From Nymphaea colorata (taxonomy: Eukaryota > Streptophyta > Magnoliopsida > Nymphaeales > Nymphaeaceae), in assembly GCF_008831285.2 (NCBI RefSeq), contig NC_045141.1, positions 10,588,106-10,652,105 of the forward strand: a stretch of 64,000 bases of DNA. Direction: 5' to 3'. Numbering within the stretch: position 1 is the first letter of the stretch; each line of letters opens with the position of its first letter. Made by a program: the position numbers and the translations under genes. Of this stretch, positions 5,457 through 49,879 are shown one piece after another. The notes below the pieces were generated by a model. The model made no database searches, was not told the DNA's origin, and saw only the letters and a list, made by a program, of their open reading frames with translations.

Positions 5457-5864
5457 TGTAAAAGTATAGAGACAAGAGAGAGAGAGAGAGAAAGAGAGCA
5501 CACCAAGCAGTTATGTGGTTCATTCAAAATTGACCTATGTCCACGATAGTTTCTCTCCTTTACAATTCTGGAAAATGAATACTCTCTTCACAACGACAGA
5601 AATTTTAGAAGAGAAAAGAAAGCTAAATAACAATTTCAAGCTGGTATGTCAAGATCCAATATTTTTGGATCTTGATTACAAAATTGAATTTCTTTCTCTT
5701 TGGAATAGATTTTGATATCTTCGAACATTGGAGCATTTGTTGCTTTCTTCTTTTGAGTGTCAATCACATTTCTTCCATATTTGACTTGATCCAAGCAATT
5801 TGATATACGTTGCAAGATTGGTAAGAATAATGGATGAATAAGATCGGCAACCTTATGTCTAACA
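5457..5864 (-). repeat. 3' LTR of Copia A
   Basis: On the plus strand it starts TGTAAAAGTATAGAG and ends TCTAACA. It aligns throughout with 9979-10389, at roughly 90 % by eye, with a variable GA-rich run near the start. Confidence 0.93.
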
Positions 5865-5899: not shown

Positions 5900-8800
5900 T
5901 AGCATTTCCTTGAAAAAATGAAACCTTGGGTAATGGCTTAGTAAAAATATTAGCTAATTGTTTTTCTGACTGAACATATTTAATCTCAATTGTATTGTCT
6001 ACCACCTTTTCTTTGACAAAATGATAGTTAATTTCTATGTGTTTCGTTCATGCATGGAAAAATGGATTTGCTGCCAAATATGTTGCTTCAATGTTGTCGC
6101 ACCACAAAATTGGTTTTTTCTCAGTCTGAATTCTCAAATCTTTCATCAAGTTATTTAGCCGTATCACTTCTACAAGAACTCCTGCAATGGCCTTGCACTC
6201 TACCTCTATGCTAGATTTTGCCATTGTCTATTGTTTGGTATATCTCCAAGATATGGTATTATGTCCAATTTTTGTAACATAGCCACTAGTGGATCTTCGA
6301 TCGTCCCAACCCAATTTGCGTCAAAGTAAGCAGATAAAATGAAAGAATTAGATTTTGATATTTCAAAGCCATGCTGCATGGTGCCTTTAAGATATCGTAA
6401 AATTCTTTTGACATAAGTCCAGCGAGTTGAAGTAGGTTGGTGCATGAACTAGCAAGCTTTATTCACTGCAAAAGTAATATATGGGCACGTTAAAGTGACA
6501 CACTGAAGTGCTCCCACAATTTGTGGGTACTGAATTTCATTTTCCAATTTTTCACCATTAAGCTTAGATAGAGGAACATTTGGAGCAGCATGAGTGACAC
6601 AAGATTTTGCATTCCTCATGTGTGCTCGCTTTAAAATATCTCTGATATATTTTCCTGTGAGAGAAAAATTCTGTCCTTTTAATGTGACACTTTAGTACCT
6701 AAGAAGAAATGTAATTTTCCAAGATCTTTTATAGAGAAGGCTTGTCCAAAACTATGTATAATCCTTTAAATTTTTCGAGGATTATTTCTTGTAATAATTA
6801 TATCTACATATATAAGTAGAAAGATTATTTTATTTTAGGTTTTTCTAACAAAAAGAGAAGTATCAACTAATAACTCATTGAACCCATTTTCAAGAAGATA
6901 TCCTTTGAGTCTTTCAAACTCGCCCGGGGTGCTTGCATTAAGCCATAAAGTGCCTTTTTAAGGTGACACCCTTGGTGAGGCATAACTGTATTCTCAAATG
7001 CTAGTGGTTGAGTCATAAAAACTTCCTCCTTTAGAATTCCATGAAGAAATGCATTGTTAACATCCAATTGATGGATAGTCCAACCTTTGGACACAACAAT
7101 AGAGAGGACGACCCGTACAGTGGTAGGTTTTATCAATGGACTATATGTGTCATAATAATCAATTTCTTCTCTCTAGCTATAACCTTTGACTATAAGTCTG
7201 GCCTTGTAACGAGCAATTGTTCCATCTGAACATCTCTTGATTCTAAAAACCCACTTACATCCAACTAGATTAACTCTCTTAGGTGGTGCGACAAGGTTCC
7301 AAGTTTGATTTTTGTACAAGGTGTCCATTTCACTTTGCGTGGCTTCGATCCATCATGGGTATTTTAAAGCCTCCTCAAGGCTTTGTGGTTCTCTTTCTTC
7401 TAGAGATGTAGTTGCCATGTAAACCTTGGGTTGCCTAGTTCCATCTTGAGACCTTGTGATCATGGAGTGAGTCTTACTTGAGAAATCAATGGTGAGATTT
7501 GGAAGAGATTGATCAATTGCATTTTCTTGAATCCTAGGATTATAAGTATAACTTTTGTCAATTGAATTGATCGAATGGTTGTTTTGAGTCTGATCTTCTT
7601 CCCGTGAATTTGGACCGGATAAGAATATATATTTGGATCCATTTGGATCAGATCCAGCTTTGTTGGAGTTGTCTTCTTTTTGAGTCTCAACTAGAGATGT
7701 GTCTAGATTATTAGAAATCCATTTTCCAATGTCCCTTTCAATGGTTGGAGAACCACATCCATGAAATAAGAAATTTGTCACATTGAAAACAAATGTTTGC
7801 TAATAAAGACCATGTTAGTAATCGGATTCAAACATATGTATCCCTTATGACATATCTCATAGCCAAGAAAAAGACAAGCTTTGGATTTTGGAGAGAGCTT
7901 GGACTCTTTATATGGTACAAGAAAGGGATGACATGCAGATTCAAAAACTCGAAAATAATCATATTGAGGAGTAGCTTTGAAAACAATTTAAAATTGAGAT
8001 TTATTTTCGAGTTCTGTACTACGCAATCGGCTGATGACGTGAATTGCTCTTCTAAAAGAATCAACCCAAAATGCTGAGGAAGAGATACATGAACCATCAT
8101 ACTTAAGCATATCTCAACAACATGGCGATGTTTTCTCTCTATAATGTCATTTTGTTGAGGCATGTGGCGGCAAGAAAGTCATCTGTTTATCCCGTTGGAG
8201 CTGAGAAAATTTGAGAAATCATTGCTTAGAAACTAGCCACCAGAATCACTATGAAAAAATTTTATCTCATGTCCCAATTGTTTTTTTACAAGCATCTTAA
8301 AATTGAAAGCATGGCAGCATGTCTGATTTTCTAACAAAGGGGAAAATCCAACTAAAACATGAAAAGTGATCCACAATCAATAGATAATATTTGTAGCCTT
8401 CTCTAGAGCATGTTGGAGCAAGCCCCCAAAGGTCTACATGAAGTAAATGAAGAGGATGAATGCTAGTACTTAAACTAAAATCAAATGACAATTGGTGCAT
8501 CTTAGCCAAAATACAACTAGAACAGAAATCAAGTTTACTATCATCCATAGACACATAATTGTTTTTCTTAAGTAAATTCAATGTCTTCAAGTGTGAATGA
8601 CCCTGTCGTTGGTGCCAAAGATTGACTGGAAGACATCTAGAATGTTGTGTAATAAGAGCATGCTTAGATCCTTTGCTGGCTTCATCAGTTCATATGTATA
8701 GACCATCCTTAGTTTTTCCCTTGTGAAGTGCTGCCCCTGTCTGCAAATCTCTAGCAACAAATCCATTAGCATCAAATTCCACCAAGCAATTGTTGTCTTT

Positions 8801-9978: not shown

Positions 9979-10389
9979 TGTAAAAGTATAGAGACAAAAG
10001 AGAGAGAAAAAGAGAGAGAGAGAGAGCACACAAAGCAATTACGTGGTTTGGTCAAAATCGGCCTACGTCCACGATAGTTTCTCTCCTTTACAATTCTAGA
10101 AAATGAATCCTCTTTCACAAAGACAAAAATTTAGAAGAGGAAAGAAAGCTAAATAACAATTTCAAGTTGGTCTGTCAAGATCCGATATTTTTGAATATTG
10201 ATTACAAAATTGAATTTCTTTTCCTTTGGAACAGATTTTGATATCTTCGAACATTGGAGCATTTGTTGCTTTCTTCTTTTGAGTGTCAATCAATTTTTTC
10301 CATATTTGACTTGATCCAAGCAATTTGATTTATGTTGCAAGATTGAGAAGAATAATGGATGAATAGGATCAGCAACCTTATCTTTAACA
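9979..10389 (-). repeat. 5' LTR of Copia A
   Basis: It starts TGTAAAAGTATAGAG on the plus strand, right beside the primer site, and ends TTTAACA before the GCACT target duplication. Substitutions against the left LTR show an insertion that is not recent. Confidence 0.93.
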
Positions 10390-22680: not shown

Positions 22681-23179
22681 GTTGGAACTCTTGGTTGCTG
22701 ATACTACATACCATTCCGATCCAATTAACATTCGAACCACGACCGCAACTCAATCCATCAGTAACCCCACTCTAACCACACCGTTATATCTGCAAATATT
22801 GCTGTTACAAGGCCACCGACGAACCCGAGACGGTCAACATGAGTATGTCGGTCACGCTTTGGATCCGAGACGGCCTCCAACGTTTCAACGTTACGCTGGT
22901 ACTTTCTTAAAACACGCGCTCCACCGTCGTCTTAAAAGCTACGCTCAGACACGTTGCAGTAAAACAGCAGCCTCGTGTCAGTAGCTCTAACGGGTATCCG
23001 AACCAGGAGCTAACGGCTAGCCCCTCCCGCTTCTTTAAAACGCGACCGTGGGCCTCGTCCTCGTCACCTGTACAGACTTCGAGTTCCCTCTCACTTTCTC
23101 TTTCTCTCTGGAAGGTCCTCTGTCGCTTGCTTCAGCTGCTACCTTCTGCAACGAGCCCATCCATCTCATCTTCGGTGAA
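22681..23179 (+). promoter_or_regulatory. Promoter and 5' leader of the early-nodulin-like gene
   Basis: GC-richer sequence lies directly upstream of the ENODL start codon. A weak TATA-like TTTAAAA sits at 23034-23040, which would put the transcript start near 23065 and give a leader of about 115 bases. A pyrimidine-rich stretch follows (about 23088-23112). No other core element is clear. Confidence 0.4.
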
Positions 23180-23830
23180 ATGGCTTCCAGAGCTGTGGCT
23201 GTCTCCTTCTCTCTCACCATCTTCCTCTTATTTTCCTGCTCTGAAGCTGTCCGGATCCCAGTCGGCGGCAGGAACACCTCGTGGTCGGTTCCATCTTCCA
23301 CCTCTCAGACACTCAACCAGTGGGCGGAGCAAACCCGCTTCCAAATAGGCGACGTCCTCGGTAATCTTCTCCTCTGCCTTCGTTTTTCCTGCTTTGCTAC
23401 TGAAGATTTGTTGATTGGGCTTTTGGACTAATGAACGAATTTTGTTTGATTGTTTGTTGCAGTGTGGAACTATAATCCCCAGAAGGATTCCGTGCTTCAG
23501 GTGACTTTTGACGATTACCAGAAGTGCAACACCTCTAACCCCATCGCTAAGCACACCGACGGGAACACCACCGTGACGCTCGACCGCTCGGGCCCCTTCT
23601 ATTTCATTAGCGGGGTGCAGGGGAACTGCCAGAAAGGGGAGAAGCTCATCGTGGTTGTCCTGTCGCCTAGAGTTGCCCAGCCGTCGATGGCTCCGGCCTC
23701 GTCGCCTGCCTCCGAGGGTTCGCCGTCTAGCCCTCCTATGGTTTCCGCTTCTACTGGTTTGGATGGTTTCAGATTGGGCTTCTCTGCTTTGGTTGTTACC
23801 TTGGTGACAATGGTGGTTGGGCTTCTGTGA
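23180..23830 (+). CDS. Early nodulin-like protein (phytocyanin fold), likely GPI-anchored
   Basis: Two exons, 23180-23360 and 23463-23830, joined across a 102-bp GT-AG intron. The split codon makes GDVLVWNYN, the usual phytocyanin junction. The product has 182 residues. Residues 1-23 form a signal peptide with a hydrophobic core. A plastocyanin-like domain follows, with WAEQTRFQIGDVL, QKDSVLQV, YQKCN and FYFISGVQGNCQKGEKL. A Pro/Ser/Ala linker and a hydrophobic C-terminal tail fit a GPI signal. In copper-binding phytocyanins the last block carries Cys and His ligands. Here they are Ser and Asn, so the protein should not bind copper, as is usual for the ENODL group. Family members are cell-surface proteins with likely arabinogalactan-type glycans. 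The exact role is not known from sequence. Confidence 0.92.
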
Positions 23831-24363: not shown

Positions 24364-24625
24364 AGAGGGGGTATTTAAAATTTTAAATCAAAATGACACC
24401 CGTATAGAGTGCGTCCTTGTAGATTGAAACCAATTTTGTGGCGGATGCTAAGAGGGGGTATTTAAAATTTTAAATCAAAATGACACCCGTATAGAGTGCG
24501 TCCTTGTAGATTGAAACCAATTTTGTGGCGGATGCTAAGAGGGGGTATTTAAAATTTTAAATCAAAATGACACCCGTATAGAGTGCGTCCTTGTAGATTG
24601 AAACCAATTTTGTGGCGGATGCTAA
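24364..24625. repeat. Three identical 87-bp tandem units
   Basis: AGAGGGGGTATTTAAAATTT starts at 24364, 24451 and 24538 and each unit ends GGCGGATGCTA. I saw no differences between the units. They lie between the ENODL gene and the left arm of the SAMS inverted repeat. Nothing suggests that they code. Confidence 0.92.
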
Positions 24626-25147
24626 TGTTAATGTGAGAAGGGAGGTGTTTTTCCTCCAAGCTACATTATCTGTAGTTCCCTTTTCCTCTTCCTATTTTGT
24701 TAAAGGTTGGACTTGTGATATACAGTTTATAGGCCCGTTTATTGTAAATGTTAGTTGGGTTTCTCTGCTTATTGGGTTACACACACAATAGCGAATTGAA
24801 TGTTTCTCTTTCACAGGGAAAGAATTGGGAGATCAAACCAATGGCAGCTCATTGGTTACTCTAGAGTGACCCGAAGCCTATGGTCTTTTGGATGATGTTG
24901 CAGACTTGCTTCATGTTTTTTCAGCAATGTCCAAACCTTTTCTTGCACGATCAAATATGAAACTTAATGACCTTCCCTTTATGACTTTGCTTAAAAATGC
25001 TGGAAAGAGGATTATTTATCTTAAAAGCAATTTGATGCTGAGCAATGAAGTTAGAAATCAAGCAATTCCTTTTTCCATTCTGTAGTTTTCAGGTTAGTCT
25101 CATCGGACCAATCCTCTTACATGCAGAAGCAATACCCCAGATGCGTA

Positions 25148-25153
25148 TTTATT
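25148..25153 (-). terminator. Polyadenylation signal of SAMS copy 1
   Basis: The minus strand reads AATAAA in GGGAATAAATACGC, about 115 bases after the stop. The same sequence and spacing occur in copy 2. Confidence 0.6.
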
Positions 25154-25268
25154 CCCACAACATACTTTGAAACAGTAAATAGAGGCCAAACAGAAACACA
25201 GAAAGTGATGGAAGCTTTCTCAGCCAACAGGCCTAGTTGTCCTTCAGCACAAAAATTGCCTCAGTTTC

Positions 25269-26432
25269 CTACTTGAGCAGCTTGACTGTCTCCCATGTGA
25301 AGTCTGGATCATCACGTCCAAAATGACCATAAGCAGCAGTCTTCTGGTACCTGAAATTTCCTCCCCTCTTCAGGTCCAAATTGATAGCTATCATCCCAGG
25401 CCTGAAATCAAAGTTCTCCTTGATCAGATTCAGTATGTCCTTATCCGAGATCTTCCCTGTCTTGTAGGTGTCGACAAACACAGAGAGTGGCTCAGGCACT
25501 CCAATTGCATAGGAGACCTGAACCAGGCAGCGGCGAGCCAGGCCGGATGCAACCACACTCTTGGCCGCCTGCCTAACTATGTAAGCACCACTTCTGTCCA
25601 CCTTGGTTGGGTCCTTGCCAGAGAATGCACCACCTCCATGAGCTCCCCACCCTCCATAAGTGTCAATGATGATCTTCCTTCCTGTGAGCCCTGCATCGCC
25701 GTGCGGCCCGCCGATGACAAAGCGGCCCGATGGGTTCAGGTGAAATATGGTCCTCCCATCAAGGTATTTGGATGGTATCACAGGCTTGATCACATGCTCC
25801 TTCAGATCTGCTGCTATCTGATCATTTGTGACCGTCTCATCATGCTGTGTGGAGATAAGAACAGTGTGAACTCTCAGTGGAACCATTGCACCTCCTTCAT
25901 TTTTGTACTCTACAGTAACCTGTGTCTTCCCATCTGGCCTCAGCCATGGGCACGTCCCGTTCTTCCTGACTTCAGTGAGCCTTGCTCCTAGCTTTGTGGC
26001 CAGGACATGGGTGAGGGGCATCAGCTCAGGAGTCTCATCGGTAGCATACCCGAACATGTGGCCCTGATCACCTGCACCGATCTCCTCGGGCCTCTTGGTG
26101 AGATGGCCATGAACACCCTGAGCTATGTCCGGGCTCTGCTGCTCTATGTTCACGAGAACATTGCAGTTGTCAGCGTCCAGGCCGACGTCTGCCGAGACGA
26201 AGCCAATCTCTCTGCATGTGTCCCGGACGATCTTTTCGTAGTTGATCTCAGCCTTGGTGGTGATTTCTCCGAATACCATGACCATGTTGGTCTTGGTGCA
26301 TGTCTCGCATGCGACCTTACTGTCAGGGTCTTGCTGCAAGCAGGCGTCGAGTATGGCATCTGATATCTGGTCACACAGCTTGTCCGGGTGGCCCTCGTTG
26401 ACGGACTCTGAGGTGAAGAGGAAGGTATCCAT
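25269..26432 (-). CDS. SAMS: S-adenosylmethionine synthetase, copy 1
   Basis: This is a complete uninterrupted 387-residue coding exon. The enzyme makes S-adenosylmethionine from methionine and ATP in the cytosol, feeding methylation, ethylene, polyamine and lignin pathways. The N-terminal [14 protein letters not shown] (residues 13-26), the ATP-binding GAGDQG (119-124) and the phosphate-binding GGGAFSGKD (266-274) are intact. So are the lysines and aspartates around them. Plant family members usually have about 390-394 residues. Here the protein ends at VKLLK, a few residues short, in both copies. The start is fixed by the family N-terminus ([14 protein letters not shown]), and the ATG sits right at a splice acceptor. 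The protein is identical to copy 2, with three silent base differences that I found. Confidence 0.98.
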
Positions 26433-27498
26433 CTGTGGTAGGAAAATTTTGTTGCCAAATCAGTAAGAATTGTGCAGAATTGTTGAGAGCGTTTCATAAA
26501 AGCAATGTATTTAAAGTAGGTTTCACAATTTTCAGACCCTTCCTCGTTCTCAAGGTCAGAGCAAATGTTTCTTCTTCCTTTTTTTTTTTTGGCAGCAAAT
26601 GACAATTGATTATAGCATCCAGGAAATGAACTTTGCGCTGAAAGATCTCAAGTAGACTAAGACCCTGTTTCCAACATAGCAGTGCTTCTCTGCTTCTCCC
26701 GTCTATCTATGCCCTGCTTCCAATTTCAAAATTCAAACTACCAATCCTCTGTTCTTGGCAACTAATTCTGACAAAGAAAGACAAGCCGGTTTCCAGTCTC
26801 TGTCTCTCTCTCTCATTGGGAACGAAGTCAGCTAGATTGCAGTAGTAATGCATCTATACATATAACCTCACATCTGAATAGATAATTAATCTTCTTAACC
26901 TTTTAAAAGATGCAGACTCGATAGATCTCCTAAAACGTTAAGATGGACTGCAATTAAGTAAGGAGATGCATGCTAGACATGAAGCCCGCTGCATATATTA
27001 TGATATCATCAAAGTCACATGGATGAAGATGACTTCTCAAGATCCTGAAAGTCTCTTTACTGAGAGCTATCTTACCCATGGACTTGAGGCAGTGGATCCT
27101 CATGTTTCATTTATACTTGCGTAAAACTGCTGGAGGCCCTCGACAGTTTTATTGCCCAAAAAATAAAATATATACACAGCAAAAAGTACAAAGCCCACAC
27201 AAGTACTGAGATGCAGAAATTACAGTGAAGATTCAGAGATGGGGTCCCAGCTTCTTGAAAATTTATGCCTTTTGTAGAAGAAAAACACTAATTTTCATGC
27301 TTTAAAAAAAATCTACCCATTTCTCAGTCATGCCCAGAATGGGTTCTGTGCTAGCTGAACTAGCAGAACGGACCATGCGTAAAAATAATCACAAAAGGGA
27401 AAGTGAAAAACTTCACAGATTCAACCGGCCCTCCATCACACTCACAACTCGAGCTGTGAGTGGCCAGTAAAACCAGGTGAGAGAGAGAGGGCAGATAC
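26433..27498 (-). other. 5' leader intron of SAMS copy 1
   Basis: On the minus strand a GTATCT donor follows the leader exon end CTGCAAGAAG at 27499. The acceptor TACCACAG lies directly before the ATG. Length is about 1066 bp. A single long intron in the 5' leader is usual for plant SAMS genes. The matching intron in copy 2 has many indels and substitutions, unlike the coding exon. Confidence 0.8.
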
Positions 27499-27590
27499 CT
27501 TCTTGCAGGTGGAATGAGATAAATGCCACAGAGCTCAGAGTGGAATGGTGGACGTGGAAATCGCTGCCAGAGTCTAGCTATTTATAAGCT
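27499..27590 (-). promoter_or_regulatory. Core promoter and leader exon of SAMS copy 1
   Basis: On the minus strand the TATA box TATAAATA (27579-27586) lies in GAGAGCTTATAAATAGCTAG. The leader exon runs from about 27555 to 27499 and contains no ATG. The same order is found in copy 2 at 30199-30305. Start-site position is estimated from the TATA box. Confidence 0.7.
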
Positions 27591-28045
27591 CTCTCCTCTT
27601 TCGTCTTACTCTTTCAAAGCGCACGGACTAATTTTGTGGGGTTGGTGTGTTTCTAAAATCCAGAAGCGGTGGGTTCCTCCAAACCTTGGTCGGGAGAAAA
27701 GGGTTGGTGAACGGAGGCGGTGGCGTGTGTAATTGCGACCAAAGTTGGTAGATCTTCAAACCCCCATGGATCTTCTGCAGGCGGTTGGTTTTGTCGGCCC
27801 ATTCCTTCGTTAAAGATTGATTCATTTCATTTTAAAGCTTTTATTTTATTTCTTAGCCTTTACTTCTGAGTTTTTTTTCCTTTCAACTTTGGCGGCTGCT
27901 TGATTCATGATCAAATTGTGCCCAACGTCACGGTTCTCCGAAACGTGTCTGCCCATTGTTAACAACCCAGACGAGAGGGATGTTTGGAAGTAGTCAATAT
28001 CAATGACAGAAAAGTCTTAAGCAGGATTGGTGTGTTGCCACTGGT

Positions 28046-28486
28046 GGAGGTGTCAACGAACCATATTTGAATCTTTGAATCCAGCATTACCTTTAATCAT
28101 ATTTATTTTGTCATATATTTATATATTTTTATGTTCAAATGTGAATTTGGATTTGAATATGAATAAAGAAAAGTTATATTTAAATCTGAATTTGAAACTC
28201 TATTTTACAATTCGAATCTGATTTTTACATTCATATTCAAATGTGAATTTTCAACGAAATTTAACCAACTTTTAAAATATAAGAGCATTATGTATTGGAT
28301 ATTTGTTTAAAAATAAATCCGATTATGTACTTAAATCCGATAAAACTGAATTTGAATCTCAATTTGATCAAATTTCATTTGTTAAATACCAATCAGATCC
28401 CATTTCTTAATCAGAAATTAAATTTTTTTCATATTTCATTTTTTGGGTTCCGTTTTATAAAATCCAATCCAAATGAGACACCTCAA
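28046..28486. mobile_element. AT-rich MITE-like element with GAGGTGTC ends
   Basis: The left end GGAGGTGTCAACGAACC and the inverse of the right end, GAGGTGTCTCATTTGG, form short inverted ends. The interior is built of degenerate AATTTGAAT-type phrases. It lies in the spacer between the two SAMS arms, just beyond the left arm. Target duplication and superfamily were not resolved. Confidence 0.45.
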
Positions 28487-28726
28487 AATCTCTATAAGTC
28501 TACTCAAATAGCCCAGACCACCCAGCCATGATGATAGATGGGGCCATCAGAGAGGCTGGTAGTAGGATCCTCTTTTTCTGCCCGATTTTCTTTGTTTTTT
28601 TTTTCTAATATAAAAATATTACTGGCCTTTTATGTTGACCACCCAAGAGCCATATAGAGTGATTATTGACTTGAATCTTCTCTTCCGTTCTCTTCTATTC
28701 TATGCTTTGTGGTTTAGTATTTAAGT

Positions 28727-28995
28727 CTTGCGCATCAGGCCAGCCCGGTCCGATAACTAGCTGGGTGCATGCTTGGCCTGATTCTAAAAACTCGAGTCTG
28801 AGCTTACCTTGATTAAATTTTAAAAAATATTTTTAATAAAAGATAATATATAAATATAATTGATTATAATAAAATATTATAAATATATATATATATTAAT
28901 AAAAAATAAAAATTAAATTATCGAGCCCGAAGACTCAGGTCCCTTTTTCTCGAGCTCGAGTTAGGCTGGGAAACTGGTATCCAACAGCGGCCCGA
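28727..28995. mobile_element. MITE-like element, GGGC arms and AT core (copy 3)
   Basis: Arms contain CAGGCCAGCCCGGTCC and CAGCGGCCCGACTT around a core of more than 100 bp that is almost only A and T. It is related to the copies at 18078, 21432 and 29425 but appears inverted relative to copy 2. Borders are approximate. Confidence 0.5.
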
Positions 28996-29019
28996 CTTTT
29001 ATATATGTAGTTTATCAAT

Positions 29020-29424
<405 letters not shown>

Positions 29425-29710
29425 CCAACTAGGAGTGTGGGCATCGGGCTGGGCCCAACAACCTGAAATTCACTGGGTCCAACATTCGAGTATCCGGTTA
29501 TAATAAAAAAATATTTTTAAATTATAAAATGTTTTTTTCATATAAATTATATTTTAAATAATAAAATATATATTATTAAATTAAAAGATAATAAAATTAT
29601 TTTTTAATATTAATGGACCAGGTCGGGCCTGAGCCCAGGCCGGGTTTTTCGAGCCAGCGTTATGGGATGGGTACCGGCTCCCACCGGCGGCCCGGCCTAG
29701 TGCGCACCGT
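29425..29710. mobile_element. MITE-like element, GGGC arms and AT core (copy 4)
   Basis: Left arm GTGTGGGCATCGGGCTGGGC, right arm with CGGCGGCCCGGCCTAGTGCGC, and an AT-only core. It stops within about 12 bases of where the right SAMS arm begins. The left arm closely matches copy 1. Target duplication not resolved. Confidence 0.55.
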
Positions 29711-30200
29711 GGGTGAGACTTTTCATTGATATGGACTATTTCCGAACAACTCTCCCTCTTTTAGGTTGTTGATAATGGACAGAAACGTTTAAAGGTGGTG
29801 ACGTTGGCCACAATTCGGTCGAGGATCAAGCAGCCGTCAAAGTTGATGGAAAAAACTCGTCAAAAACAAAATAAAAAGCTTTACAATGAAATGAATCAAT
29901 CTTTGTCGAAGGAATGTGGCAAGAAAACTAGTCCACCTGCAGAATATCCATGGGGGTGTGAAGTATCTGCCAACTTTGCTCACGATTACACGCCACCTCC
30001 TCCATCCACCAACCCTTCTCTCCAAACCAAGATTGGAGGAACGCCTACTGCTTCCACCAAACCCCGTCCACACAATACGCTGGTGTAGTAAAGCAAGACA
30101 AAGCGAATTAGAACAGACTTGGATGGTTGGTAGAAGCGCACCAACCCCCCAGAATGAGTCAGTGCGCTTTGGAAGACGAAGACGACAGGAGGAGAGAGCT

Positions 30201-30305
30201 TATAAATAGCTAGACGCTGGCATCGATTTCCACGTCCATCATTCATCTCTCACAATTCTGTACTTCTGAGTTCTGCGGCATTTATTTCACTCCACCTGCA
30301 AGAAG
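30201..30305 (+). promoter_or_regulatory. Core promoter and leader exon of SAMS copy 2
   Basis: The TATA box TATAAATA at 30201-30208 lies in GAGAGCTTATAAATAGCTAG, a near-exact match to copy 1. A start near 30232 is expected. The leader has no ATG before the splice donor at 30306. GTCCATCATTCATCTCTC, a pyrimidine-rich stretch, follows the expected start. Confidence 0.7.
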
Positions 30306-31376
30306 GTACCTGCTCTCTTTCTCTCTCTCCCTCTCTGGTCACCTGGTTTTACCGTCCAGTCACAGCTCCAATTCTGTGTGTGATGGAGGCCCGGTTGACT
30401 CTGTCCCTTGTACACTCGATGGTGAAGTTTTTCGCTTTTTCCTTTTGTGATTATTTTAGGCAATGGTTACTTCTGCTAGTTTAGCATGACTGAGAAAAGG
30501 TAGTTTTTTTTTTTTAAAGCATGGAAATTAATGTTTCTCTTCTATAAAAAGTATAAATGAAACATGAAGCTAGGACCCCATCCCTGAATCTTCACTGTAA
30601 GTTCTGCTTTTTGCTGTGCATGTATGTTATTTTTTAGGCAATAAAACTGTCGAGGGCCTACCCATCAGCCGGAGTTTTACCGGAAGTGTAAATGAAACAT
30701 GAGGATCCACTGCGCCTCCAGTCAAAGGGTAAAATAGCTGTCAGTAAAGAGACTTTCACTAACAGTCATCTTCATCCATGTGACTTTGATGATGTCATAA
30801 TGTATGCATCGGGCTTTATTTCTAGCATGCATTTCCTTAATAGCAATACATCTCAACGTTTTAGGAGGTCTATTTAGGTTTCATCTTTTAGAAGGTTAAG
30901 AAGATGAATTATCTGTTCAGATGTGAGGGTGCATGTATACATGCATTACTATTGAAATCTAGGTGGCTTCTTTCCTAATGTGAGAGAGAGGCCAGAAACA
31001 GCCTTGTCTTTCTTTGTCTGAATTAGTTGTAAAGAAGAGAGCATTGGTGGCCTGAAATTGAAAGCAGAGCATAGATAGACGAGAGAAACAGAGAATCACC
31101 TCTGTTGGAAACAGGGTCTTAGTCTACTTGACATCTTTTAGCGCACAATCCATTTCCTGGAAGCCAGAATCAATTGTTATTTCATGCCAAAAAAGGGAAG
31201 AAAAAATTTAACCATCTGCTCTGACCTTGAGAAAAAGGAAGTTTCTGAAAATTATGAAACCTACTTTAGATGTATTCCACCTGTTTGCTTAAATACATTG
31301 CTTTTATGAAACGTTCTCAAAATCAGCAATTCTGGACAATTCTTACTGATTTGGCAACAAAATTTTCCTACCACAG
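30306..31376 (+). other. 5' leader intron of SAMS copy 2
   Basis: The donor is GAAG|GTACCT and the acceptor TACCACAG abuts the ATG at 31377. Length is 1071 bp, close to that of copy 1. The sequence has diverged from it by many substitutions and small indels. No coding sequence lies inside. Confidence 0.8.
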
Positions 31377-32540
31377 ATGGATACCTTCCTCTTCACCTCA
31401 GAGTCCGTCAACGAGGGCCACCCCGACAAGCTGTGTGACCAGATATCAGATGCCATACTCGACGCCTGCTTGCAGCAAGACCCTGACAGTAAGGTCGCAT
31501 GCGAGACATGCACCAAGACCAACATGGTCATGGTATTCGGAGAGATCACCACCAAGGCTGAGATCAACTACGAAAAGATCGTCCGGGACACATGCAGAGA
31601 GATTGGCTTCGTCTCGGCAGACGTCGGCCTGGACGCTGACAACTGCAATGTTCTCGTGAACATAGAGCAGCAGAGCCCGGACATAGCTCAGGGTGTTCAT
31701 GGCCATCTCACCAAGAGGCCCGAGGAGATCGGTGCAGGTGATCAGGGCCACATGTTCGGGTATGCTACCGATGAGACTCCTGAGCTGATGCCCCTCACCC
31801 ATGTCCTGGCTACAAAGCTAGGAGCAAGGCTCACTGAAGTCAGGAAGAACGGGACGTGCCCATGGCTGAGGCCAGATGGGAAGACACAGGTTACTGTAGA
31901 GTACAAAAATGAAGGAGGTGCAATGGTTCCACTGAGAGTTCACACTGTTCTTATCTCCACACAGCATGATGAGACGGTCACAAATGATCAGATAGCAGCA
32001 GATCTGAAGGAGCATGTGATCAAGCCTGTGATACCATCCAAATACCTTGATGGGAGGACCATATTTCACCTGAACCCATCGGGCCGCTTTGTCATCGGCG
32101 GGCCGCACGGCGATGCAGGGCTCACAGGAAGGAAGATCATCATTGACACTTATGGAGGGTGGGGAGCTCATGGAGGTGGTGCATTCTCTGGCAAGGACCC
32201 AACCAAGGTGGACAGAAGTGGTGCTTACATAGTTAGGCAGGCGGCCAAGAGTGTGGTTGCATCCGGCCTGGCTCGCCGCTGCCTGGTTCAGGTCTCCTAT
32301 GCAATTGGAGTGCCTGAGCCACTCTCTGTGTTTGTAGACACCTACAAGACAGGGAAGATCTCGGATAAGGACATACTGAATCTGATCAAGGAGAACTTTG
32401 ATTTCAGGCCTGGGATGATAGCCATCAATTTGGACCTGAAGAGGGGAGGAAATTTCAGGTACCAGAAGACTGCTGCTTATGGTCATTTTGGACGTGATGA
32501 TCCAGACTTCACATGGGAGACAGTCAAGCTGCTCAAGTAG
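31377..32540 (+). CDS. SAMS: S-adenosylmethionine synthetase, copy 2
   Basis: A complete 387-residue coding exon with the same protein as copy 1. [13 protein letters not shown] (14-26), GAGDQG (119-124) and GGGAFSGKD (266-274) are present, so activity is expected. The three silent differences I found against copy 1 are in the codons of GEITT (GAG/GAA, residue 56), FVDTY (GTA/GTC, residue 320) and MIAIN (GCC/GCT, residue 349). The gene is head-to-head with copy 1, about 4.9 kb ATG to ATG, with its own TATA box, leader exon and leader intron. Both genes look functional. Expression cannot be judged from sequence. Confidence 0.98.
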
Positions 32541-32654
32541 GAAACTGAGGCAATTTTTGTGCTGAAGGACAACTAGGCCTGTTGGCTGAGAAAGCTTCCA
32601 TCATTTTCTGTGTTTCTGTTTCGCCCCTATTTACTGTTTCAAGTATGTTGTGGG

Positions 32655-32660
32655 AATAAA
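32655..32660 (+). terminator. Polyadenylation signal of SAMS copy 2
   Basis: AATAAA in GGGAATAAATACGC, about 115 bases after the stop and matching copy 1. Confidence 0.6.
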
Positions 32661-33075
32661 TACGCATCTGGGGTATCGCTTTTGCATGTAAGAGGATTGG
32701 TTTGATGAGACAGCAAACTGAAAGCTACAGAATGGAAAATGGAATTTCATGATTTCTAACTTTATTGCTCTGCATCATTAATTTGATTTTAGGATGAACA
32801 ATCCCATTTTCAGCATTTGTAAGCAAAGTCATGAATGGAAGGTCATTAGGTTTCATATTTGATCGTGCAAGAAAAGGATTTTCAGGCGTTCATTGGAAAT
32901 TTTAAACCTCCCATTGTTGGACTTGTGATCTGGCCACATCTTCCAGTACCATAAACAAAAAAAAAAGAAGTACATGCTTAAATAATAAATGAAAAATTAA
33001 TAGCTACATATGGCTCTCATTTTTTCGTCTACCATGGGCCATCTCCAGATGGCAATTCATATAATAAGTAACAAT

Positions 33076-33458
33076 TGTTGGGTTCATGCAGCGGAATGGT
33101 GTCTGGCATCTGCCGATCGGCTCTCTTCTGTGCAGCAGGTTTACCACCACCAGCGTGTCAACCATAGCCTCTCAACGTAAAGAGGCAGCACCTGTGAACA
33201 AATAGAGAGAAAGAGGAAGAAGAAGAGTATGTCCCTTTTGGGGTTTCCTTCTAAGGGGCTCCTCATGTGTAATCAACCATCTAATACTTAGTCTCGCTAG
33301 ATATAAATAGTCAGCGCCTTAGGTTTTCCCCAAATCCAGCAGCGGTTACAGTCAGTGAGAGATTTTAGGTGAGCATTTAAAGCTCGTAACTGCAAGTGGG
33401 CCCCCTTGCAGTTACAAGATGAATGGGAAGGGCTCTTGGCCACTACCACTACCCAACA
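33076..33458 (-). repeat. 3' LTR of the non-autonomous element
   Basis: TGTTGGGTTCATGCAGCGG to CTACCCAACA. A TATA-like TAGATATAAATAG sits near 33299. The adjacent inner bases read GGCTAAGTGGGATA on the minus strand, a plausible polypurine tract. Confidence 0.9.
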
Positions 33459-34569
33459 TATCCCACTTAGCCATGAGACTGCCAGTTTGCTTCCACTATA
33501 TATGAGTTTTCTTGATCTTTAGTTACGAGGTTTTCCTTAATTGGTTTGTCCATCGTAACTTGTTAAAACTTAGTCGCATATAGACCAAACTTTACATCAA
33601 AACATCAAGAATTTTCTTGATAATAATGCTAGCAATCATGTACGCATTTGATACGTACATATATATCCTCTTCTTGTTCAACAGTGAAATCAACCTGGAT
33701 ACTTTTCAACCACCTCACAAAGAGGCAAACCAGTATTTTCTTAGCCCCATACGAGCTACATGCTTGGCAGATAAATCAATAGTAATTTTTTCACTAAAAT
33801 GCTAGCAAACATATAAATACTTCTCTGTTTTATTCATGTATCCGAAAACAATTAAATACCTTAAAACAAGACAACTTGGACATTTTTAATGTGTACTAAC
33901 AAGCCAAATTAAGAGCTTGTATCAAGTCCAACACACAAACTAATATACATTGAAAGCACATAACATACCTTTCTTTTATTGTTTTCATCAATGTACTCCT
34001 TTAACAACAGGAGTTCCAATGCATTCATGCAATGCATTAAGGTGTGACAAAACAATATAAAGTTTTCCATCAAAACAAAGAGCATATTCAAGTGTGCTCC
34101 CACTTATCAAATATTTACATAGTCATCAACCTGATTAGCAACTCCTAATCTTTATTATGATTATTTAACAGAATGAGCAATTAACTCATAGTCTATCATA
34201 CAAGCACTTTTCATCTTATATAGTTTTCATCAATGTACTCACTCATAGAAAGAGTTCCATTTATCCCATCGAGGTCAACACATAGCTTCAACAACGCATG
34301 CATGCAACAATAATTCAAATATCTCCATTCATGTATTCTACAAGAAGATCATTAAGATCACTAATAAACTTCAGTTGAACGTTTAATATCAAACTGATTC
34401 TTAGTCGGTTCATTACCTGACCGCTTATTAGCATATTTAAACGATCAAACTTGATCATCAAATGAATAGCCAGATTTTGTGCATGCAACAATGATTCAAA
34501 TATAACCATGAAACTCTTGACTTTTGTGACTATTATCAATGTCTAAAGAATAAAAAATTGGACTCAGTT

Positions 34570-34735
34570 GGTTATTTTTCTTACTGATCCATAAATTGAT
34601 CTAGACGGTTCATTACTAGATTGTTCAGTTGGTTCATTGCCAAACTGATCCCAATCGGTTTTTTGTGAGACTGTTACCCAGTTGGTTCATTGCCAAACTG
34701 TTCTTCAGTCGGTTCATTACCAGACTGATCAGATC
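34570..34735. repeat. Degenerate short repeats (GGTTCATTGCCAAACTG)
   Basis: Phrases of the type GTTGGTTCATTGCCAAACTG or CGGTTCATTACCAGACTGAT recur at irregular spacing of about 30-60 bases inside the non-autonomous element. They look like decayed tandem units. Confidence 0.6.
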
Positions 34736-37619
34736 ATCCAGTAGATCAATATGATCTCCCATTGGATCATTGTCTTTGATATTATTATTTAAACACATCA
34801 ATCTCATGCATAAAACTTCATATACCCTACTTCATTTGGATATTCAATACATATGCATTTAGAAACATATTATTTAACTTCTAGATATATACTTCATATG
34901 CATTGTATATCTCCTAAGATATCAATATGAATCTAATTAGTGTGGATCTCATTATAGTCATGAGTGTTATCTTACACCTCATGACAAATATTTAAATCAA
35001 ATTCATTCTCAAACAAGAACTTGCTTAATTGCATGCTAACATAGTTCAATCCACAAATGAACAAATAATATAACATGTTTGGATCTAATATAAACAGGAT
35101 ACAGATGTTTAACCATATATCCAAATATATATATTCAAATCTGAATCACAACTATATGTAAAGTGGATCTCAAGCAATAAATAGATCCAATTTCAAAAGT
35201 CACATGAATTCAGATTATATTAACATAGATCCAAACTAGTAATATCAATAATATCATTGACATGAATTTAAAACACATGATCCTCATTAAAATAATATAC
35301 AATACGATTCAACAACCATATTTGGATCAATACCCATCTCTCTTTGAAGAAAACAAGTTATCATGTACTAGAACTTTAGTGCTATAAAGCTTCAAATAAA
35401 TACATTCTTGCCAATATAAATGTTGGTCCAAGAGTATTATATTACATCTCTTGAGCATGCACTAAAAGACAAATTCATTTTCCTACAAAAAAAAGCAAAT
35501 AAAGCTTTATCCAATAATTTTCCAGAATAACCTTTGAATCTAGAATGGCAAGACATACTATAATATGATCATATCCAAAGACAAACATGATAACATATAT
35601 TGGAACCAAAATAATTAGGATATGAATTTTTCACATATCCAACCAGGTCAGTTTAGATCTGAAGCTAAACTTTATGTAATGTGGATTTCAGCAGTTCAAA
35701 TATATAAATTCAGATCAAATCAGTAATATCCACAATGCAACTAATCTGAATTTAAAACTGCAAATGATCCAAATGTTGTACACCATGATTTCAACAACCA
35801 TGTTTGGATCAAACAATACCCTAATTCTTGAACAATGTATAACAAGAAAAATTTCTTTACCTTGGTCTGTATCCATACTAATTCATCACCCAAATAAAAC
35901 AAGTCTCCAAATTAAGACATTCCAAACTCATATGGGTTTCAGTTCAAGAGTGTTATAGTACACCTCTTGAACATACATTTAAAACAAGTTCACCTCAGTA
36001 GTGGAGTAAATAAAGCATTGTTCAATTAGAACTATAGAATGATTTGAGTTCATATCTGCTAGCCATCTTAGATAAGGGCAAATAAATTTTTATGTACTTG
36101 AATTTATAGTACAACAGATCTTCAAATAAAATATTTCATTAACATGGTTTTCATCATCTTTATGACTGTTATCTTTCAAAAAGCAAACATGATGATATAC
36201 GGTATTCATTGTCAGTACCAGTATTTGGAGTCAATGATCCAACTAAATTCATCTGGATGTAAAATCTATCATAAACGAGTATAATGCTATATGGATCTCA
36301 CCATGTCTAAGAGTATTGATTTGCGCCTCTTAGCATACAATCATGCAATAATATAATCATTCATTTTAAATAGGATAAACACATAGTAGTATAATCTTTA
36401 TCCCAAGAATATTCTTTTATAAGGAGCAAAAGAAATTCATCTTTTAGCACTCTAGTGCTACTCACATTGAATGTGTACAACTCGTAAAATCATTAGATCT
36501 AAAAATCAATGCTTATCATAATATGTTTAGATCTAATATAAACAAGATATAGATCTTGAACAAGTCAAATCAGATCATGCTCCAAATGAGTGCAGCGTTT
36601 AGTGTGAGATCCAAATTCAACAACTAAATGGATATATAAAACAAAGTTTTGGTCATAAATATGTGTGTGGACCAAAAAAGACGATGAATATTTGTAAAGC
36701 AAGTATAATAGCATATACTTAAACCAACATGAACCAGATATGAATTTTTAACCAAAATCCAAACAAATTTAGATCTGAATATGTCATGATTCAAAACGAA
36801 TATAAATATGGAACTTAAGCAACAATCAGATCCAAAACAAAAATCCAAATGATTATTTAAATTCAGATCTTACCAATGTGGATCCACACTCAATAATATC
36901 AACACTATAATTGATATGTATTTAAACAAATAAAGAGGATCCAAATTCAAATCCAATATGACTGTGTTTCAACATAATATTCATATCCAAATACGACACA
37001 ATGTTTATAACACCATTGGGTCATGCACACACAAAATAACAAAAATGTATAAGCATACATGCTAACCATTTTTAGCTTTTTGCCTGAGCTCCCACTCTTG
37101 TAGTCATTTCTAAATTAATTCCATGACAAGTATAGAACATTAATACATGAAAAAAAAACCAATAAGGAGAATAATATATCAATGATCTCCAATACCGTTC
37201 TAAGTATCAGTTAAAACAAGGAAAACTCATTAAAATTTTAGACCGTAAGTTCCCTTCTCATATTTCAAAATTATTTTCAGAACCCTTTTTCTGTGATTTT
37301 AATAAGCCTAAGGGTATCAGTACGTAATTGTACATAAATCTCGGTTTTCCGCAGAAATTGTAAAAGAATTTTCTGCAACCCTCTTTCAGAAATTTATGAT
37401 AACTAGGAGGGTATCTTTACGAAATTTCATATAAAATTTCTAGGTTTCACTGAAATTAACTTTCGCAAGCCTCTTCTTGAAAACGTTTTATGAAAAAACA
37501 CTGCTGCAATAATATTAGCAAAATGTGACAACGTTTTTGAAACTATTGCGAAAATGGTGGACTAAATATGTAATTTTCAAACTTTGACTGTAAAAACCAT
37601 TTTCGAATGATTTTTCCTC

Positions 37620-38040
37620 ATTTTCCGATTTCGTTCTCTCTCTCCTCTTGAGAGTTCCTCTTTCTCTCGTGAAACCCTAACCGAGGGTTTAGTCTGCCGC
37701 GCCGCACCTCCGCTGCCTGTACCAACGCCGCCGCTGCCAAGAGGAAGACGACCTCCTCTTCTTCCTCTCGTGAGGAAGATAGCCGGAGCGGCTTACGACG
37801 AGCAGCTAGCATCCTTGGGCGTTTTTACGCCACAACAAGGTTTGGGTCTCCACGGGGAGGAAGTCAGGGGCTTCAGCAGGCGAACACCAATGCCTGGTCA
37901 AGCATCTCTGCTGGACACGACAAGCAAAAAAAAGATGTCGGCTGAGCACCGGACCCGGTCAGGGCCCTCTGTTTTGGCTCTTGGGTCGTCGCCTGAGGGA
38001 CTTGTTTGCAGTTGTTGGAAAAGAAAACAGTAAATCTTTT
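37620..38040. other. GC-rich island inside the non-autonomous element
   Basis: In contrast to its AT-rich surroundings, this stretch is GC-rich. It has runs such as GCCGCGCCGCACCTCCGCTG and CCTCCTCTTCTTCCTCTC. Short frames exist on both strands (about 37618-37812 minus, 37770-38033 plus) but match no family I know. It lies near the 5' end of the element and could be part of its leader or a captured host fragment. Confidence 0.4.
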
Positions 38041-38604
38041 GGACTGCCGGAGAAGGAACAGCGGTGAAAAAAAAAACTCGTGCTTTTACGCGTCTACTGG
38101 AACAAGAGCATCAGTGTGCTCTCCAACAACAGACATCATATGAGGTAATGCTCTTTCTCTCAGATTTTGTGCGTAAGGGTTATGGTTTCTTATTTATAAC
38201 TCTGCATTTTATTTCCTTTAGAAATCTTCTTCCATGATACTTGACACTTGACAGATATGCATGCTTTAGAGCTCGACTATGCTCTTTGTCACTTTCTCGG
38301 ATACAGAAGTACAACTTAAGTGGACAAAGCACAAACTTGTATTTCGAATCCAAAAAAAATATCATATATGTTTAGACTAGCATGCTTCATATAATCTGTC
38401 TAACATGTCTAATATTATTTAAGCATGCTTCATGTTTTTTATTTGGCATCATCTACCTTGCTTTCTCATGCATTTGACTCATCTTAAAGCAACATGATTA
38501 ACCAATGACATATATATATATGTGTGCAGACTGTATTCATCATAGTTATCACAGGCACCACCTAAAGTCGGAACGGACTTACTGGTATTGGTAGAACCAA
38601 CCTA

Positions 38605-38616
38605 GCTTTGATACCA
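38605..38616 (-). other. tRNA-Met-type primer binding site
   Basis: The minus strand reads TGGTATCAAAGC one base from the LTR end. It differs from the usual Copia primer site at one position. Confidence 0.8.
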
Positions 38617-38617
38617 C

Positions 38618-39000
38618 TGTTGGGTTCATGCAGCGGAATGGTGTCTGGCATCTGCTGATGGGCTCTCTTCTGTGCAGCAGGTTCACCACCACCAGTGTGT
38701 CAACCATAGCCTCTCAGCGTAAAGAGGCAGCACCTGTGAACAAATAGAGAGAAAGAGGAAGAAGAAGAGTATGTCCGTTTTGGGGTTTCCTTCTAAGGGG
38801 CTGCTCATGTGTAATCAACCATCTAATACTTGGTCTCCCTGGATATAAATAGCCAGCGCCTTAGGTTTTTCCCAAATCCAGCAGCGGTTACAGTCAATGA
38901 GAGATTTTAGGTGAGCATTTAAAGCCTGTAATTGCAAGTGGCCCCCCTTGCAGTTACAAGATGAATGGGAAGGGCTCTTGGCCACTACCACTACCCAACA
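38618..39000 (-). repeat. 5' LTR of the non-autonomous element
   Basis: Same ends and length as the left LTR with a small number of substitutions, for example in CTGCTGATGGGCTC versus CTGCCGATCGGCTC. Confidence 0.9.
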
Positions 39001-46745: not shown

Positions 46746-49700
46746 TGTCACACCCCAACTCTTTGACCCTCAAATAATCTTTTTTTGTTTTGTTAAAACA
46801 TAAAACGTTGAGGTGCAACGACACAATGATTCAAAAGGAAAGGCGCTATGCACATCAAAGACAATGGGGCAACTTTACATTATATGATAAATTCAGTCCT
46901 TACTAAATCACATCATATTTTTCCAATAATACATATGACAAAAATGCCTCAAACCACAACATTGATGTCTAACAAAAATAAGACATCAATAAGACCAAAA
47001 CATGGTGCGCCGACACTACAATAGACCTAAAACCTCCAAAGTAGGATGTGAGTAGAGCCATTTAATTAACTTGTTGCCCTGAGTCTGCCAAAACCTGAAA
47101 AAGAAGAACAACTAAAGGCTTAACCTTCGCAGTATGGCAACACCCTAGATAATTCCCTAACCCTCTTAGGTAAGGGCCCAAATTTAGTATAAACAACTAT
47201 GAAAGCAAATCACTATTATGTCGTGATAGGGCATATAATCACATGACTTGTCAAGAAAACCCCTCACATATACCATGACATGTAAAGGTCACTCGATGGC
47301 CACAATAACACATTCAAAAATCACATACAATTCATGCATAAACATATCATTCTTATTCACATTCTTTTCATTTACATTAACTTTAGTGAATTGACTGTTC
47401 CTGTGGGTGCAAACACAGGCACGTACACACCATGGGCAAACTACAATCGAGAGACAACCCCATGGTGGCCTGAAATGATATGCATCCATTCACACTGCAG
47501 TGAAAGAGCAATCATCCATGGATGTGTGAATTTCAAGAAGAGTTGCTTAGCCTTCCCTAGGACACCCAGTTTGGGAAGGCGGGAGCCCAACGCTCCAAGC
47601 ACATCACACAATTGTACATTGAGGCCTTGCATGGCTTGCGCTCCAAGCAGACGAGACCAGTGGCGAAGGCGGGACATCTCCTAAACACATAGCCATAACT
47701 CACTGGCCTCTCATCTGTTATTCTTTCTTACTTATCATTATGAAAGCACATTCACAAAATGACCAGCTAGCTCATGAGGTTGGTTTACTTCACGAGTACA
47801 CTCGTACCTCCAATTGCCTCCACATGAGGGCTACACATATAGTTAACATTCTTAGTTAGTCGTCATAATAATACGTACAACTACCAATCAATTTCAATCA
47901 TTTGCATTTATGCCCACGATAATGCATGTGCAACATATCACAACATTCACATTAGTCATACACATCAATCACATCTTTCAAAACTTAGCCAAACCACGGT
48001 GAGTAGTCTTAATCCTTGATTGGCTCGTAGTTGTCTTAGACAATTATCATTTTAGGATGCTTTCTAATGCACAAATGGAGTCGAGGAAATACTCGACTCG
48101 ATACTCCACCTCATCTGTACTAAGCAGTTATCGTTTTTAGTATGCACATGCAATTGCATAGTAATTTTCAAAATAAGACTTATAGTAATTTTTAAAGCAA
48201 AACTTATCTCATAACAATCCAATCACATGCACACATTTACTCAATCCCAACATAGCTATAGGATCCAATGATCCTAAAAACACACATTCAAAGGTTGGCC
48301 CCAAGCAAGGATTTGCCTGGAATGCCGCCATACCTGTCATGCATCAACGAAACACCAAAAATGCCTCGAGCTTCAAATCTTGTTGCTCAAGGTGTACTTG
48401 ATATGCCCGTTGTACCTGCAAACATAAGCAAGTAATAAGTTCTCTACTCGCTTCACTTTACAATTTATACAAGTATGAAATACAATAAGGTCATCGCATC
48501 AAGAGGGTGTCGATGGGTAGTATCGACCCAAAGCCCTCCAATAGGTCTATTCCCAACTTTTTGAGGTTGTCACCAAACGATTTAAGCTCCGCTCTTTTGA
48601 TTTGAACCAATCACTAATGTGTTTCTCCCTTGCTTCCTTAGTTGAGGTGTTTTCCTAACAAAAATACTCTTTCCCAACAAACGACGTACATGCACATCAA
48701 CAAAAGCATACTTCATGAGTTCGCAAAGCGGTTCTAAACCTTTTTCACAACATCACAATCTCTACCATGTTTCCTAATCACTTCAAAAATTGATTCATCA
48801 TGCTAAAGAGATAGATATACACGTGGATCCTCGTCCCTCCAAAATTGTCATAGACCTTCCCCAAAAAGCAAATTCGTTAACATGCATTTTAAATCATCAA
48901 ATCTTAAGTCTAGCATGCTCAAGCATTAATTATACATGCACCAACGAAAATTATTACGCAACTTAAGCTCAATTAGGCCTTGCTCACACCAATCTTAGAG
49001 TCCAAACTGTTGCAATGTTCGCAGCAACCACCTCAAATGTTCGGTTGATCCCCTAGCGGCAAAAATCATACGATTTTGCCACCACGAATGCCTTCCATTT
49101 GTTGTTGTGAGGGGAAAGATGTGTCCCCAAGCTGAAGTTCGACCAAATACCTACAAAAATAGTGAAAAAGAGCGAAAAAGAATGCAAGAGGAGGGTCTAC
49201 CATTAGAATAGGACCTCCGGCAGTGAAGAGCTGGTTTGGCTGAAGATGGGAGACACTCGGAGTGAGGAAAAACTAGCAGGAGAGAGGGAGAGTGCTCGGT
49301 TGAGGGAGAGTGGAAAACAAACAAAAAATGAGGAGAGGGAGACTGACCGAGAGAGTTTGGGCAGAGGGGAGAGCATGCGGGGGAATGGAGATGAGAGGGA
49401 CAGTGAGGGAGAGAGTTGGCAGAAGGAGAAGGAGAGTGGTAGCACACAGAAGGGAAATAGTGCAAACGAAGAGGGGAAAGACAAACGGAGAGTGCCGAGG
49501 GAGAGAGGGCAGGTGTGAGAGAAGGAGAGAGAGAGAGAATGCAGAGAAAGAGAGAGACGGGCAGAGAGAGGGCATTGACAGGGAGGGGAGAGTGCGGGTA
49601 GAGAGAGGGCAGAGGAGAAGAAGGAAGAGATAGAGAGAGACCGATGGGCTTACCTACGCGCCGCCGCCACCGCGTTCACCCAAGTTGTCACCCTACACTA

Positions 49701-49879
49701 ACCTCTATCTTCTTCTTCTCTGCATCATATTCTCACTTGCAGAATGAGAGGCAATGAAGAGGGAGACCGAGAGGAAAATGAGGGAGAAGAGCCCTCGCAT
49801 CAGGCTCTCACATAGGTGAGGTTTGGGTTCGGGTCTAGACCCCGATCCAAATTCAACCTGCCAAAGTGGTAACATTACA
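46746..49879 (+). mobile_element. Solo LTR, long Gypsy (Tekay/Del-like) family, copy 2
   Basis: It begins TGTCACACCCCAAC and ends GTAACATTACA. CCTAG sits on both sides (46741-46745 and 49880-49884), a perfect 5-bp target duplication. Length is 3134 bp. It matches the inverse of 12813-15708. There is no internal region, so it arose by recombination between the LTRs of a full element that had inserted in RNase H of Copia B. A long purine-rich GA stretch runs from about 49250 to 49650. No real gene is inside. Confidence 0.93.
49250..49650. repeat. GA-rich (polypurine) low-complexity tract
   Basis: About 400 bases of GAGAGG/GGAGAG-type sequence with few pyrimidines on the plus strand, inside the solo LTR. 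It gives long spurious frames on both strands that should not be read as genes. Confidence 0.8.

Follow-up and report, generated by a model that had tools for sequence, protein, structure and literature searches.

Interlocus gene conversion as the probable source of a low-divergence block shared by two inverted SAMS genes of Nymphaea colorata

We describe here a pair of S-adenosylmethionine synthase (SAMS) genes that are adjacent and inverted in a 64,000-nucleotide stretch of the Nymphaea colorata genome (contig NC_045141.1, positions 10,588,106 to 10,652,105; this whole stretch is called the window below), and which share a block of low divergence that interlocus gene conversion very probably made, as judged from the comparison of the two copies. 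The block runs past the coding sequence (CDS) on both sides. Between the CDSs we find 5 differences in 1164 positions (K 0.004), with no indel and no amino-acid change; all five, at CDS positions 48, 168, 435, 960 and 1047, are silent and fall on third codon positions, which gives a silent-site divergence (Ks) of 0.019 (5 differences in ~268 silent sites; 95% interval of the difference rate 0.6-4.3%). At the rate of the leader intron about 40 silent differences would be predicted, and the contrast of silent sites with the intron is significant by Fisher's test (p = 3e-11).

The gene pair and the divergence along its arms

Each SAMS CDS is one uninterrupted open reading frame (ORF) of 387 codons, and the two are placed head to head with 4,944 bp between them. 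The Pfam scan was run on copy A only, the copy B protein being identical, and it returned the three S-AdoMet_synt domains (N-terminal, central and C-terminal; PF00438, PF02772, PF02773), each above its cut-off; the best PDB matches of copy A are S-adenosylmethionine synthases. The self-comparison of the window gave two inverted-repeat matches, 24933-27655 against 32880-30131 with identity of 87.3% and 27663-28017 against 30054-29716 with identity of 76.9%. In both copies a GT splice donor follows AAGAAG, at 27498 (-) and 30306 (+), and CAG abuts the ATG, so that from these splice signals a leader intron can be proposed for both genes. A leader intron ending just 5' of the ATG is typical of plant SAMS genes. 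Sunflower SAMS genes are described, in the available portion of PMC11598334, as having no introns. The features of the pair are as follows.

25269-26432, minus strand: SAMS copy A, intronless CDS, 387 aa (ORF; Pfam domains; PDB matches)
31377-32540, plus strand: SAMS copy B, intronless CDS, 387 aa, protein identical to copy A (ORF; CDS alignment)
24930-28017, minus strand: inverted arm A (self-comparison, alignment)
29716-32886, plus strand: inverted arm B (self-comparison, alignment)
28018-29715, no strand: inter-arm spacer of 1.7 kb with short weak self-matches only, containing a 100-bp AT array
26433-27498, minus strand: putative leader intron of copy A, 1066 bp (GT donor; CAG immediately 5' of the ATG)
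30306-31376, plus strand: putative leader intron of copy B, 1071 bp (GT donor; CAG immediately 5' of the ATG)
27579-27586, minus strand: TATAAATA box-like site of copy A (read by eye; common to both copies)
30201-30208, plus strand: TATAAATA box-like site of copy B (read by eye)

The arms were aligned with MAFFT, divergence was expressed as the Kimura two-parameter distance (K2P) and silent sites were counted by the Nei-Gojobori method. Following copy A from its promoter, 80 of 404 sites differ in the promoter arm (28016-27592; K2P 0.234, 10 gap events), 9 of 92 in the TATA site and first exon segment (27591-27500; 0.105), 132 of 879 aligned sites in the intron body (27499-26547; 0.168, 15 gap events) and 7 of 110 at the intron end (26546-26437; 0.067, 2 gap events). 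The 41 bases 5' of the ATG are identical in both copies, and so are the 63 bases 3' of the stop (0/63). Divergence is met again beyond these first post-stop bases, with 7 of 105 sites differing in 25205-25100 (0.071) and 22 of 168 in the 3' flank (25099-24932; 0.145, 3 gap events).

Much of what the first-pass annotation of this DNA had proposed is borne out by these data: the two head-to-head SAMS genes in inverted arms were recovered both as CDSs and as an inverted-repeat alignment, and introns, promoters and outer flanks have indeed diverged by substitutions and indels. It was also correct in calling the CDS differences silent and the protein unchanged, but the three differences that it counted are five in the CDS alignment. 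A flat identity across exon and intron, which it had named as the outcome that would speak against its reading, is absent from the arms.

The block was delimited statistically. When 1,608 sites, noncoding or fourfold, were scanned for a segment of low divergence, the best one raised the log-likelihood by 29.6 units, a value that none of 100 shuffles reached (maximum 9.3). A change-point analysis over 1,607 noncoding and fourfold sites, in which models of one to seven segments were compared by the Bayesian information criterion (BIC), preferred three segments, namely 27591-26526 at 0.147, 26525-25135 at 0.022 (9/412) and 25134-24932 at 0.128; the BIC was 1107.8 for three segments, 1116.1 for four, 1119.6 for two and 1138.7 for a flat model. 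The identity profile across the arms is a plateau. Inside 25206-26473 the identical runs measure 524, 266, 180, 119, 88 and 86 bp, against 36 bp for the longest run outside this core.

25135-26525, minus strand: homogenised block of copy A, putative conversion tract (3-segment change-point model)
25206-26473, minus strand: strict gap-free core of copy A, 5 differences (list of differences)
31336-32603, plus strand: counterpart of the strict core in copy B (flanking differences 26474/31335 and 25205/32604)

Divergence is intermediate at both sides of the block (0.067 and 0.071), and we considered whether such graded edges point to more than one round of conversion; the BIC, however, is worse for any model of four to seven segments than for the one with three, so one conversion event suffices and we do not claim repeats.

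Gene conversion and its alternatives

From this pattern we would suggest the following order of events. An inverted duplication would have given two divergently transcribed SAMS genes, whose noncoding sites then drifted and gathered indels until they stood, as now, ~0.15-0.23 substitutions per site apart. Later, in one or more ectopic (interlocus) gene conversions, ~1.3-1.4 kb would have passed between the genes, comprising the entire CDS, some tens of bases at the 3' end of the leader intron and about 60-130 bp 3' of the stop. The position of the block may be explained by the CDS, where protein constraint lets no indel persist, having remained the only long uninterrupted homology, while indel-rich introns and promoters would no longer join in conversion and the copied tract would end soon past the exon. 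Such an end agrees with the suggestion, made in the available portion of PMC3966223, that faster divergence of introns may impede conversion. Taking 0.019 against 0.168, the last homogenisation falls roughly at one-ninth of the age of the pair. That portion of PMC3966223 also names another origin, in which the ORF alone is duplicated; it does not fit the initial duplication here, since the arms align far beyond the CDS on both sides.

Gene conversion had been named as the cause already in the first-pass annotation, which held that protein selection could not account for the silent identity, and our analysis upholds both statements: few silent differences remain of those predicted, the block takes in sequence adjoining the CDS, and, as identical sequence lies both 5' of the ATG and 3' of the stop, protein selection alone is inadequate. 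Its view that conversion was centred on the coding exon needs some correction, for the block covers the whole CDS but its edges, ~26525 to 25135, are not at the exon borders.

Several points weigh on the other side. The reading is drawn from two paralogs in one assembled sequence. The 41 bases before the ATG (a presumed splice acceptor) and the 63 after the stop (a presumed 3' untranslated region) may be partly constrained, so the probability of finding no difference in these 104 bases at the intron rate, 4e-8, is to be weighed lightly. Codon bias is moderate, with an effective number of codons (ENC) of 47.9 and 48.0 in the two copies against 58.4 expected from the GC content of third codon positions, and some constraint on silent sites may come with it. 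Two indels, of 6 bp and 23 bp (at 26483 and 26515), fall just within the left boundary that substitutions give to the block, which makes this edge uncertain by ~50 bp. Finally, one independent argument in favour of conversion has its limits: the sunflower SAMS genes, where 19 of 19 tabulated paralog pairs have Ks of 0.504-4.345 (SAMS4/SAMS7: Ka, the divergence at amino-acid-changing sites, 0.009, Ks 0.504; PMC11598334), demonstrate that silent sites of SAMS can diverge over time and no more than that, because these pairs are whole-genome duplicates from another plant and older than the present pair need be.

The alternative that survives best, although we consider it unlikely, is an artefact of assembly or polishing, by which exons that truly differ would both have been built from reads or transcripts of one copy. 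A short-read consensus can be homogenised in near-identical blocks of such a size; a collapsed copy would, however, be expected to be fully identical, and here the five silent differences remain, spread over the CDS. Quite improbable appears the overwriting of one or both exons by a third SAMS gene located elsewhere. Plants can carry several SAMS genes, with seven on seven chromosomes in sunflower (according to the available portion of PMC11598334), and the direction of transfer in our pair is not fixed; against it, the self-comparison found no third SAMS copy within the window (E up to 1e-8), and the short distance of 4.9 kb between the two CDSs makes each the likely conversion partner of the other.

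We give still less credit to strong selection on silent sites or on RNA structure that would hold the exons identical with no conversion at all. The codon bias of the two copies would be in its favour, and the sunflower paper, in its available portion, makes a case that codon usage is under natural selection (PMC11598334); the sunflower Ks values speak against it, and effects of codon usage would not extend to noncoding margins such as the identical post-stop bases. Antisense coding was also considered as a cause of the silent identity, since both exons contain long antisense frames of 260 and 123 aa from stop to stop, and was rejected: 3 of the 5 differences alter antisense residues in ATG-started ORFs and 4 of the 5 do so in stop-to-stop frames, so that protection of these sites by antisense coding is not seen. 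Hardly credible, finally, is RNA-templated conversion, in which a cDNA from one gene overwrote the exon of its partner, for although the block closely matches the coding exon, the identical bases before the ATG would belong to the intron that a cDNA lacks, and the first exon segment with its TATA site was not homogenised.

Surroundings of the pair

In the spacer between the SAMS promoters lies an uninterrupted, self-complementary 100-bp AT array (29023-29122). AT arrays of such kind can be fragile. A continuation of the arms through the spacer was looked for by a word-7 self-comparison of 27991-29740, which gave short matches only (best direct E 7e-4, best inverted E 0.009), and it was rejected.

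Just beyond arm B there is a likely long terminal repeat (LTR) retrotransposon (33076-39000) with 383-bp direct repeats of the form TGTTGGG...CCCAACA, identical at 366 of 383 positions; the five bases at its outer edges, ACAAT and ACAAC, are similar and not identical. With ~4.4% divergence between the LTRs, the insertion of this element would postdate the SAMS duplication. Outside arm A an 87-bp unit is repeated in three identical tandem copies (24364-24625), and a plastocyanin-like (Cu_bind_like) domain was found at 23450-23827 (E 4.5e-17), together with a below-cut-off match at 23039-23428 to the start of the same profile; 23039-23827 is perhaps a two-exon plastocyanin-like gene beside SAMS copy A.

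We also considered a larger inverted duplication around the pair, as 12831-15708 matches 46746-49849 in three inverted pieces at 73.6-75.9%. Both segments end in GGGTGTGACA, which we take to resemble the end of a transposable element, and the left segment was examined for a target-site duplication: upstream of it ATTTC stands before TG at two places, 12589 and 13075, neither of them at the edge of homology. We would rather see in these segments two members of one element family, inserted separately, than outer arms belonging to the SAMS duplication. Farther off, direct repeats of ~410 bp (5457-5864 and 9979-10389, identity 89.9%) flank a gag_pre-integrs remnant at 8300-8689 (-) and are perhaps the LTRs of an old element. 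Remnants with gag_pre-integrs and zf-RVT domains, together with the plastocyanin-like domain, mark the content of the window as probably that of a plant.

Inverted layout and known systems

In the literature that we searched no report of SAMS gene conversion in plants was found, by which the absence of such reports is not proven. The contig collections searched held no plant relative: the best 80 of 293 genome-contig loci are prokaryote-titled, with identity of at most 62%, and the viral contig collection gave one locus, with identity of 48%. Among plant enzyme genes, the PAI1-PAI4 inverted repeat of Arabidopsis is also an inverted pair, and its arms are a source of methylation and silencing.

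As to orientation, the first-pass annotation expected the inverted layout to help pairing, a view that finds no support in our data. The available portion of PMC3966223 states that adjacent copies undergo conversion whatever their relative orientation; a study that it cites suggests more conversion where both copies point the same way, a result confounded by proximity. A palindromic layout, in turn, may minimise copy-number polymorphism (PMC3924832). It is possible, if rather doubtful, that conversion in the SAMS pair has been sustained and selected, the exon being repeatedly homogenised, diverging promoters driving an identical SAMS and the inverted layout averting copy-number loss.

Coding-confined ectopic conversion in inverted paralogs is a known process, and the SAMS pair is very probably a plant example of it. 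Related cases are found in Caenorhabditis, as described in the available portion of PMC3966223, where hsp16 has inverted modules like the SAMS arms and col-12/col-13 combine an ORF identity of 99.5% with diverged flanks, as in our pair; col-12 and col-13 are, however, tandem copies and their tract includes the intron, whereas the SAMS intron of ~1.07 kb is excluded except for its last tens of bases. The same enzyme is concerned in a protist, Trypanosoma brucei, whose S-adenosylmethionine synthetase genes Tb47 form, according to the available portion of PMC1855330, an invariant tandem array with noncoding parts that are typically identical, unlike the diverged ones of the SAMS pair. Another case is that of the palindromic pairs Hsp70Aa/Hsp70Ab and Hsp70Ba/Hsp70Bb of Drosophila, where a highly conserved protein, a tight inverted pair and ectopic conversion come together (PMC3924832), although the Hsp70 pairs rest on comparisons of species and shared silent polymorphism and the SAMS pair on comparison within one sequence.

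We see in this pair a clean and well-bounded plant example of interlocus conversion between inverted genes, in which dating of the duplication by the exon would give about one-ninth of the intron-based age, and where an enzyme is kept the same in two copies while their promoters drift apart. The direct precedent is the palindromic amylase pair Amy-p/Amy-d of Drosophila (PMC3924832), from which our case differs in being a plant SAMS gene with a putative leader intron, read in one genome only; should sustained selected conversion be true, the fly Amy case would have its plant equivalent in the SAMS pair.

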